From positions 1 through 37,593 of the forward strand of contig JARIGV010000015.1 of assembly GCA_029288615.1 (NCBI GenBank): DNA of 37,593 nt, given 5' to 3'. The notes under the pieces were generated by a model, which saw only the letters and a program-made list of their open reading frames with translations, was not told the DNA's origin and did no database searches. Within the stretch, counting starts at the first letter, position 1. Every line of letters begins with the position of its first letter. This document shows, in pieces, positions 10,568-37,593 of the stretch. The stretch is from Candidatus Tayloriibacteriota bacterium (lineage in GTDB: Bacteria; Patescibacteriota; Minisyncoccia; Phycocordibacterales; CAIRYW01). The position numbers and the translations under genes are program-made.

Positions 10568-10581
10568 TTTGTGTGCCCAGG

Positions 10582-10665
10582 GTGGGACTCGGTCACAAGT
10601 ATTTTTCTGCTGAAAAATCTTGCGACCCCGCCTCGCGCCGACGCGCTCCGGCTTTCTCGTCCCAC
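10582..10665 (-). repeat. 84-nt structured tRNA-associated element, copy A (3' of tRNA-Leu(UAA))
   Basis: Minus strand GTGGGACGAG-AAA-GCCGGAGCGCGTCGGCGCGAGGC-GGG-GTCGCAAGATTTTTCAGCAGAAAAATACTTGTGAC-CGAGTCCCAC; same segment lengths as the copy at 19311-19394. Confidence 0.85.
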
Positions 10666-10684
10666 GACCTAAACTATGTTTATG

Positions 10685-10770
10685 TGCCCAGGGTGGGACT
10701 CGAACCCACACGCCTTTTTTGAAAGCTGGGGATTTTAAGTCCCCTATGTCTACCATTCCATCACCCGGGC
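10685..10770 (-). tRNA. tRNA-Leu(UAA)
   Basis: GCCCGGGTGATGGAATGGTAGAC...GGGGA-CTTAAAA-TCCCC...GTGGGTTCGAGTCCCACCCTGGGCA. Confidence 0.93.
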
Positions 10771-10781
10771 GAAAAGATGAA

Positions 10782-10936
10782 GCGTAGGCGGATCCTCGCC
10801 TTACAGGCGCAGTACACCTTTTGGATATTTTGTTTCGCAGTACTCACAAAATATGCTCAAAAGGTTTTCGATTCCCTAAATGAGTGATTTCGATCACTCA
10901 TTTCCTACGCCAATAAAAAGCGGAGCTTTTTATTGG
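10782..10936 (-). repeat. structured tRNA-associated element, variant 3' of tRNA-Cys
   Basis: Hairpin 10910-10936; inverted copy of tRNA-Cys 3' end split by hairpin 10878-10903 (TTCGATTCCC..CCTACGCC on + strand); long hairpin 10817-10864; direct partial copy GCGTAGGCGG at 10782. Confidence 0.7.
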
Positions 10937-11008
10937 AGGCGTAGGCGGGAATCGAACCCGCGCATGACGGTTTTGCAGACCGGAGCGTTACCACTTCGCC
11001 ACTACGCC
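10937..11008 (-). tRNA. tRNA-Cys(GCA)
   Basis: GGCGTAGTGGCGAAGTGGTAAC...CGGTCTGCAAAACCG...GCGGGTTCGATTCCCGCCTACGCC. Confidence 0.93.
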
Positions 11009-19182: not shown

Positions 19183-19253
19183 GGGCGATTAGTTAAATGG
19201 CATAACTACGGTCTCCAAAACCGTCGTCGTAGGTTCGATTCCTACATCGCCCG
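19183..19253 (+). tRNA. tRNA-Trp(CCA)
   Basis: GGGCGATTAGTTAAATGGCATAAC...ACGGT-CTCCAAA-ACCGT...GTAGGTTCGATTCCTACATCGCCCG. Confidence 0.94.
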
Positions 19254-19254
19254 C

Positions 19255-19300
19255 AATGATTTGCAAGAAAGCCTAAACGGTTTTCGCGCAAATAATCATT
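19255..19300 (+). repeat. hairpin immediately 3' of tRNA-Trp (part of tRNA-associated element)
   Basis: AATGATTTGC..GCAAATAATCATT outer stem with inner GAAAGCC-TAAAC-GGTTTTC. Confidence 0.7.
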
Positions 19301-19310
19301 TCGTAGTGAT

Positions 19311-19394
19311 GTGGGAATCGAAAGGCGCAGGCCGACGGGCCGAGCCGGAGTCGCACAAAATTTCAGCAGAAATTTATGTGTGACCGATTCCTAC
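19311..19394 (+). repeat. 84-nt structured tRNA-associated element, copy B (3' of tRNA-Trp)
   Basis: GTGGGAATCG-AAA-GGCGCAGGCCGACGGGCCGAGCC-GGA-GTCGCACAAAATTTCAGCAGAAATTTATGTGTGAC-CGATTCCTAC. Confidence 0.87.
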
Positions 19395-19444
19395 ATTTGA
19401 GTCGAAGGAGATTCCTACACTGCCAACCACTACCCCATCCATAT

Positions 19445-19472
19445 TTGACATATACATATATTATGCTATAAT
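19445..19472 (+). promoter_or_regulatory. consensus sigma70 promoter
   Basis: TTGACA - 16 nt - TATAAT; predicted TSS coincides with ATG at 19480. Confidence 0.85.
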
Positions 19473-19479
19473 ATACTCA

Positions 19480-19644
19480 ATGAATACTCGTTCTACCCAA
19501 CGCCGTCAATCGCAGCCGACTCAATCGTGGATGTCCGTACCAACTACGGCTTTCCGCAATGATCCGGCTCTCCAGCCACAAGCTCGCCGCGAGGTTCGCC
19601 TCACGAGCTTCCAGCTTGGCAAGAGCCAGCACCGGACAAACTAA
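19480..19644 (+). CDS. small Gln/Arg/Ser-rich hypothetical protein (54 aa)
   Basis: MNTRSTQRRQSQPTQSWMSVPTTAFRNDPALQPQARREVRLTSFQLGKSQHRTN*; consensus promoter directly upstream and strong terminator downstream. Confidence 0.65.
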   Translation: MNTRSTQRRQSQPTQSWMSVPTTAFRNDPALQPQARREVRLTSFQLGKSQHRTN

Positions 19645-19665
19645 ACGGCGACATCCATATTCAAA

Positions 19666-19699
19666 ACGACCTTCCGAAACTCTGGTTTCGGAAGGTCGT
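19666..19699 (+). terminator. Rho-independent terminator of 54-aa gene
   Basis: Perfect 15-bp stem ACGACCTTCCGAAAC-TCTG-GTTTCGGAAGGTCGT. Confidence 0.75.
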
Positions 19700-19705
19700 T
19701 CGCTT

Positions 19706-20657: not shown

Positions 20658-21506
20658 TTATTCTCCAGTTGGGTTTTTTGCTACCCATGTGTACTCATTT
20701 GCAATGTCCATTCCTCTTCTTCTTTCGATTTCATCCATCACCACATCAACCACTTCCTCTGATGGATGCCAGACTTTTATAAGCCCGAAGCTCTTAATAA
20801 TGGCGAAAGCTTTTCCGAAAGTTTTGTAGGACTGATCAATGCAAAGCTTGTAGAGCTCGTACGCTACCCATGAATGCGTTGCCAGAAGACTCTGTACCTT
20901 ATCACGAATTGAGGCATGTGGATCGTTCCGCGAATCATAATGCGCGGTTTTTGCCGCATGCTGAGGCAACTCGAAGGTCACACTCATATCGCTTTTCGGG
21001 ATGCTTATCTCGCGGATGCTTTCACTGAAGAAAGTGGGAATGTTCTCCCATCTTTTTACTTTAAGACTTTGCGGCACCGGGCGCGTCTCATCTTGTGAAA
21101 TGAAACAACGATTAATGTCGCTAAGTGAAGAAAGTTCCTCAGTGATGCTTCCTGCGAAATGAGTCAGTCTCATATCTTGGCATTTTTTAGCAAAAAGTTT
21201 TCGAGGTGCAAATGTGATGCTATCTTCAGGTAGACCACATCGCTCAAAAAACTCTTGTCGCTTCAGCCATTGGCGCACCCTCACGAAGGTTGTGTGGCTC
21301 GATTCCATGCAAATGACGACTTGAGCATGAAGATCGCTAGTGATATGGTGTAGCGCTCTAACAGCTGCTTCAACTACCATGCCATCTGGCATATCAAACC
21401 ATGCACATGCGTAAGGGGATATTCTGGCTCTTGGAGGGATTATATTTCTGCGTGGATCGAATCCAAAAATGATTGGACTCGAATCAGCGGATCCTTTGAG
21501 GTTCAT
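20658..21506 (-). CDS. hypothetical protein, possible RNase H-like N-terminus
   Basis: 282-aa uninterrupted ORF; IIFGFDPRR...ACAWFDMPDGMVVEAAVRAL..QVVICMESS loosely resembles RuvC/RNase H-like strands. Confidence 0.55.
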   Translation of the reverse strand: MNLKGSADSSPIIFGFDPRRNIIPPRARISPYACAWFDMPDGMVVEAAVRALHHITSDLHAQVVICMESSHTTFVRVRQWLKRQEFFERCGLPEDSITFAPRKLFAKKCQDMRLTHFAGSITEELSSLSDINRCFISQDETRPVPQSLKVKRWENIPTFFSESIREISIPKSDMSVTFELPQHAAKTAHYDSRNDPHASIRDKVQSLLATHSWVAYELYKLCIDQSYKTFGKAFAIIKSFGLIKVWHPSEEVVDVVMDEIERRRGMDIANEYTWVAKNPTGE

Positions 21507-21570: not shown

Positions 21571-21651
21571 TGCCGGAGGTGGGACTCGAACCCACACATC
21601 TTTCGATACACGATTTTGAGTCGTGCGCGGCTACCATTACGCCACTCCGGC
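21571..21651 (-). tRNA. tRNA-Leu(CAA)
   Basis: GCCGGAGTGGCGTAATGGTAGCC...CACGA-CTCAAAA-TCGTG...GTGGGTTCGAGTCCCACCTCCGGCA. Confidence 0.93.
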
Positions 21652-37518: not shown

Positions 37519-37593
37519 AAAACGAAGTTTTGATGCGGGAAGTAGGCGCTAAACGCGCTTACGCCTAGGACTCGAACGGCGGAGTATAATTTT
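37519..37593 (+). repeat. structured tRNA-associated element 3' of tRNA-Gln (truncated by window end)
   Basis: Hairpin CAAAAC-GAA-GTTTTG; TGCGGGA and CTAGGACTCGAA are the inverted copy of the tRNA-Gln 3' end, split by hairpin GTAGGCG-CTAAACG-CGCTTAC. Confidence 0.72.

Follow-up and report, generated by a model that had tools for sequence, protein, structure and literature searches.

A miniature, structured and apparently undescribed element at tRNA gene 3′ ends in Patescibacteria

The ssrA islands of Dehalococcoides insert in the T-loop of the tmRNA gene and regenerate the end of that gene (PMC3146451). These islands are kilobases long, carry an integrase gene and use one fixed target. Other described systems are short and gene-less. 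The repetitive and double hairpin elements (RHE and DHE) of organelle genomes are scattered and potentially mobile hairpin or double-hairpin elements without genes (PMC2800124). REP and REPIN sequences are GTAG-tagged palindromes of 20-40 bp; they are extragenic, non-autonomous and present in high copy number, and they are moved by RAYT (PMC3733652). Prokaryotic MITEs and the terminator-like SPRITEs are miniature, non-autonomous elements with terminal inverted arms and direct repeats, some of them resembling terminators. The terminal repeats of MITEs belong to the element, and their direct repeats are short (7-9 bp for QMITE2) (PMC10969869).

The window, by which we mean the whole stretch of 37,593 nt that was analysed, contains a pair of 84-nt elements at 19311-19394 (+), beside tRNA-Trp, and at 10582-10665 (-), beside tRNA-Leu. 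As predicted originally from the letters alone, the two align without gaps, and the segments of the hairpins H1 and H2 read in both copies as they had been spelled out. The 10-bp closing stem proposed at the same time is complete in the Trp element, whereas the alignment of the Leu element gives 8/10 pairs with two purine mismatches and its computed fold contains 7 outer pairs and a shift. The folds were compared with those of shuffled sequences, which gave z values of -7.1 and -6.7 for the two elements, with 0/200 shuffles being as stable. The closing stem consists of target sequence, because its 5′ arm (X′) is an inverted copy of the tRNA 3′ end and its 3′ arm is a copy of the adjoining tRNA 3′ end (X) that follows right after the core. 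Neither copy had been noticed before. The direct repeat of the tRNA end measures 24 bp at Leu and 12 bp at Trp, and an additional partial copy of X is present at the Trp locus (19410-19424). Covariation between the two elements had been taken to reflect selection on the fold. This holds for the core, but not for the closing stem, which covaries because X and X′ are target sequence. A third element, overlooked in the original prediction, lies beside tRNA-Cys; it shares the architecture but has a different core, core C (Table 1).

Table 1. Positions of the host genes and element parts within the window
Feature	Positions	Strand	Evidence
tRNA-Trp(CCA), host gene	19183..19254	+	ARAGORN and Rfam RF00005
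Repeat X, tRNA-Trp 3′ part from C56	19236-19254	+	inverted and direct repeats
Spacer hairpin A (AATGATTTGC..GCAAATAATCATT)	19255..19301	+	read from sequence; hairpin type recurs beside many tRNAs
X′, inverted tRNA-Trp 3′ end	19308..19322	+	15-nt arms 19234-19248 / 19308-19322, 93% complementary
Core B, Trp copy; H1 19324-19346, H2 19350-19384	19321..19384	+	folds, covariation, model match 106 bits
Second X copy, Trp, 12 nt (CGATTCCTACAT), from the base after the core	19385..19396	+	direct repeat
tRNA-Leu(UAA), host gene	10684..10770	-	ARAGORN
Repeat X in and just past tRNA-Leu	10679..10702	-	24-nt direct repeat, 96% identical to 10568-10591
X′ (GTGGGACGAG), imperfect inverted X, Leu	10656..10665	-	sequence, alignment
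Core B, Leu copy	10592..10655	-	fold, model match
Second X copy, Leu	10568..10591	-	direct repeat
tRNA-Cys(GCA), host of related element	10934..11008	-	
Core C element 3′ of tRNA-Cys, X-A-X′-core-X plan, conserved TGTAA-loop hairpin	10790..10876	-	model R2 match 100 bits (R2 built from five copies, this one among them)

Other sequences of interest were seen in the window. At 37519-37593, 3′ of tRNA-Gln(TTG), an inverted tRNA-Gln 3′ end and a small hairpin are followed by the start of a core that is cut by the contig end. A 25-nt imperfect repeat of the 3′ part of tRNA-Leu(CAA) (21475-21499 and 21582-21606) is perhaps the remnant of an older element. Right after the Trp element (19445-19700) there is a perfect TTGACA-16-TATAAT promoter-like site, and a short ORF starts at 19480 and a strong terminator occupies 19665-19700.

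Integron attC sites are folded single-strand sites at gene 3′ ends, in which structure is conserved over sequence and which carry R and L boxes for recombination by IntI. The elements described here resemble attC in the single-strand fold, in the conservation of structure over sequence and in their position at gene 3′ ends. Unlike attC, they have no R or L core boxes that could be recognized by eye, and no integron or cassette array was seen. With tRNA- and tmRNA-site integrative elements they share insertion in the T-loop, a direct repeat that runs from a fixed point within the gene to its 3′ end, and a regenerated gene end that leaves the gene intact (PMC3146451). They differ from ssrA-type islands in being gene-less and only ~75-200 bp long, too small for a gene encoding their own integrase, in using many targets, and in combining a structured core with an inverted copy of the target. 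The covarying pair H1 and H2 corresponds to a double hairpin element in the sense of two adjacent hairpins that are repeated and gene-less; RHE and DHE are found in organelle genomes, however, and neither a duplicated tRNA end nor a target-complementary arm is described for them in the available part of that source (PMC2800124). Similar to REP and REPIN, the elements are short, extragenic, hairpin-forming, non-autonomous and present in high copy number, but they are not linked to RAYT genes, as the element in a REP/RAYT unit (REPtron) is, and they duplicate gene ends precisely (PMC3733652). They are also short, non-autonomous and, judged by empty sites in a sister genome, mobile, as are MITEs. 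In contrast to the element-owned terminal inverted repeats that a MITE shares with its autonomous parent, their arms copy the target and change along with it, and no parent was found (PMC10969869).

The size of the family was assessed with a covariance model built from the two sequences, the Trp and Leu copies, as search query. A first look at the source genome gave 8 matches and the scan of the whole genome 13, in line with the expectation of more than two copies. Relatives carry them as well: copies occur in 100 of 148 genomes of the same order, 503 in total, with up to 30 scored copies per genome. Over the phylum the distribution is patchy across Patescibacteria, with matches in 32 of 287 genomes, single-contig genomes included. 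The genomes are, it appears, metagenome-derived and the model E-values are rough; the types of hairpin A, the small hairpins and the other cores were partly described by eye. Scanning 85,462 species for the pattern gave records whose titles include Paceibacteria groups and Berkelbacteria, and additionally one Ignavibacteria and one Nanoarchaeia MAG contig, both of which we take to be mis-binned. The fold had not been recognized as a named family, and indeed only the tRNAs in the window match Rfam at the gathering score; a relaxed Rfam search with six loci gave only sub-threshold matches to unrelated families. An origin from phages, plasmids or viruses was rejected, as INPHARED, PLSDB and three pattern scans of IMG/VR gave no match. 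A description of these elements was not found in the open-access literature searched, which does not prove that none exists. The gene-less tRNA-end elements apparently represent a large and so far undescribed family, and a very common structured, tRNA-directed mobile element, in Patescibacteria. The reduced genomes of these bacteria are thought to be streamlined.

At tRNA genes, the order of parts is an intact tRNA ending in X, the spacer hairpin A, the inverted X′, a 64-nt core of two hairpins and the second X, where X extends from C56 of the T-loop to the 3′ end. In 45 of the 52 cases with a direct repeat of 12 nt or more, the second X follows the core directly, without an intervening base, and the commonest repeat length is 19-21 nt; many right-hand copies are only ~9 nt long, which counts against the reading proposed below. 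Consistent with the predicted location next to tRNA 3′ ends, a tRNA on the same strand ends no more than 130 nt upstream of 80 of the 147 unique hits, and 1 hit shows the opposite arrangement. On the other hand, about 67 of the 147 have no nearby upstream tRNA, which also counts against the reading proposed below. The targeted tRNAs comprise 17 amino-acid identities. In the source genome, the X-A-X′-core-X plan was recognized by eye at roughly a dozen of 35 tRNAs with various cores in the slot; core C sits at tRNA-Cys (in the window), tRNA-Val(gac) and tRNA-Gln(ctg). The tRNA plan is unchanged outside the class, and the repeats there often end at the encoded CCA and sometimes extend beyond it. 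Since repeats of at least 30 nt occur outside the class, only the 5′ boundary is fixed, and a 19-bp target duplication was rejected as a general rule. Several copies from tRNAs of the source genome have, by eye, a small hairpin in X′ at the boundary of acceptor and T-stem, which makes the right-hand unit look like a mini-tRNA in which the core takes the position of the T-loop. A conserved CGAAAGCGTACTCGCG-type hairpin was seen between the core and the second X at loci L040, L021, L110 and L122, and also at L123, right of tRNA-Glu.

Insertion is not confined to tRNA 3′ ends. The 3′ ends of rplL and rplK are targeted, with 20-nt repeats, and further sites are 5S rRNA and uvrA. In insertions at the 5′ parts of tRNA-Glu and tRNA-Ser copies, an extra hairpin precedes the core. 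Copies located 5′ of genes have different repeat lengths, which again counts against the proposed reading. In one genus, near-identical short cores are present in intrinsic terminator loops, among them those of the terminators that follow 5S and rplL. The elements insert into each other's hairpins: at locus L268 of genome G033 (near 1400-1580), the H1 loop of a core B holds a core C, within a partial copy of tRNA-Val.

Two alignments were used to examine compensatory changes in the core. With 49 matches, 30 of 32 pairs showed two-sided compensatory change and 95.3% of cells were paired, compared to 37-49% with slid partners. A second set of 107 matches gave 29 of 32 pairs and 95.1% against 34-45%; fitting to the model biases both alignments towards the structure, yet the margin is very large. 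One G.U pair is retained by 100 of 104 sequences. Because this pair would become an A.C mismatch on the complementary strand, it is probably the tRNA-sense strand that folds, either as RNA or as single-strand DNA.

Mobility was assessed by comparing same-genus genome pairs that had been picked by identity; the sister genomes share 87-89% identity over the clpB region and do not represent strains. G110 has an empty site at tRNA-Val(gac), where GAGGTT, CGAATCCTCTATCGCCCAC and CGTATAATT follow one another uninterrupted. In G033 the same gene is followed by a core-C element flanked by two perfect 19-bp copies; beyond the right copy, the native downstream sequence resumes. A core B is also present upstream at this G033 locus, with a core C nested in its H1 loop. 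The clean 19-bp empty site is one of core C and not of core B, which counts against the reading given below. A core-B insertion of ~165 nt splits an OmdA-domain ORF in G033, while the ORF of G110 is uninterrupted. No 19-bp repeat was found at the OmdA insertion or at the terminator-loop insertions, which likewise speaks against it. G033 also has a core B at uvrA and at tRNA-Leu(caa) where G110 has none, although the surroundings are less clean. Orthologous terminators of G015 and G097 contain different elements, some of them apparently reversed, or none. Because of these presence/absence patterns in G033/G110 and G015/G097, the differences between sister loci are insertions and not a fixed RNA. 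Of the roles considered at the outset, that of a non-autonomous, tRNA-targeting mobile element is well supported by the family, the repeats and the empty sites. While mobility is well supported, the mechanism and the enzyme presented in the following are ones that we infer. In three terminator loops of G097/G015 (L304, L306 and L307), core-B-like structures are reversed relative to those at the same sites of the sister genome, which are in the usual orientation.

We consider it the best reading, and on balance probable, that the element is miniature, gene-less and non-autonomous, uses hairpin loops as insertion sites and restores gene ends through an integrase-like crossover provided in trans. 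A typical unit would consist of X-A-X′-core, about 75-200 bp without a gene. Its tRNA-sense single strand would fold so that X pairs with X′ in a stem, with A and the core as the caps. A trans-acting enzyme would join the folded element at the loop of the target hairpin, between positions 55 and 56 in the case of the T-loop. The new 3′ end of the gene would then come from the element and the old end would be displaced to the right, leaving a 19-21-nt repeat and an intact tRNA. Such a process would be analogous to integration at tRNA or tmRNA sites, in a tiny gene-less unit, and the single Xer-like recombinase of the host may be one candidate for the enzyme. The behaviour of X′ bears on this scheme. 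X′ pairs with its own X at 8.5/12 positions, compared to 7.0/12 for shuffled partners (500 shuffles, maximum 7.4). Among cases with a difference between X and the right copy, X′ agrees with the intact tRNA 18 times and with the right copy 3 times (p 0.0015); X-A-X′ thus behaves as a single unit, and the closing stem is secondary. The closing stem as the primary pairing was rejected, as X′ pairs better with the intact tRNA. These data fit an element that carries X and renews the gene end; they also fit a copying of X into X′ at insertion. We favour the former because it accounts for both the fixed 5′ boundary and the presence of native sequence beyond the right copy.

Enzymes that could act in trans were searched for. 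The elements carry no gene, and the loci examined contained neither a copy made autonomous by an ORF in its H1 loop nor one with a long insert. The source genome encodes one tyrosine recombinase, which is Xer-like, and none was detected in the copy-bearing genomes G020 (15 copies) and G067. The lack of an autonomous relative and the scarcity of recombinases count against the proposed reading. A dedicated tyrosine integrase was rejected on this basis.

A more specific version, which we put forward tentatively, is that a single-strand dumbbell, with an X:X′ stem and with A and the core as caps, is recognized by structure and not by sequence. One enzyme could then insert it at any hairpin loop, the element would renew the gene end, and its target-matched arms would track the target. 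If true, this would be a new way of moving DNA. The elements offer a case in which structure-directed integration can be studied where the element has no enzyme of its own. They may account for variability of tRNA 3′ regions and for gene disruptions in Patescibacteria, and they can confuse the annotation of tRNAs and terminators.

It seems unlikely that the arms arise by fold-back copying, in which a polymerase or reverse transcriptase would self-prime at A, copy the tRNA 3′ end into X′ and switch to the core, so that X and X′ would come from the target at each insertion. Long X-A-X′ inverted repeats are present at tRNAs, and X′ frequently complements the 3′ end of the intact tRNA perfectly even where the right copy has diverged, both as copying would have it. 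However, a right-hand repeat that starts exactly past the core is left unexplained by fold-back copying alone. A reverse transcriptase partner was rejected, as such genes show no association (odds ratio 1.3, p 0.48) and the source genome has no match to one.

A functional cis RNA, with the core serving as 3′-trailer, terminator cap or tRNA-like processing signal in tRNA maturation or RNA stability, appears quite improbable. Only a minority of tRNAs per genome carry the element, although unpaired bases and the G.U wobble are conserved and the position is frequently 3′ of tRNAs, 5S and ribosomal protein genes. In G015 and G097 the core lies within near-perfect terminator hairpins that covary between species, which would agree with such a role. 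On the other hand, the element is missing or replaced at orthologous genes of sister species. Many A hairpins upstream of the core look like terminators, so the core may often go untranscribed. The tRNA-trailer RNA considered in the original prediction is unlikely as the main explanation because the element is absent at orthologous tRNAs, is found in terminator loops and at 5S, and splits a protein-coding gene.

Movement of REP by Y1 is not known to duplicate 19-21 bp, which counts against RAYT or IS200-type Y1 single-strand transposases mobilizing the element as they do REP. This option, also among those first suggested, is very doubtful even though hairpin elements are typical Y1 substrates (PMC3733652) and Y1 genes are commoner in core-B genomes (odds ratio 3.1, p 0.002, uncorrected for relatedness), since Y1 has no match in the source genome or in G002, G003, G015, G020 and G033 despite 6-15 copies each, the 28 loci with RAYT/Y1 genes contain only one core B, and simple palindromes of their own flank several RAYT genes. 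Such short palindromes flank the RAYT-like genes of Paceibacteria at L344, L350, L351, L353, L355, L358 and other loci, for example CAATTAAGCAGGTTGAACCTGCTTAATTG at L353, and look like a separate set of REP-type elements.
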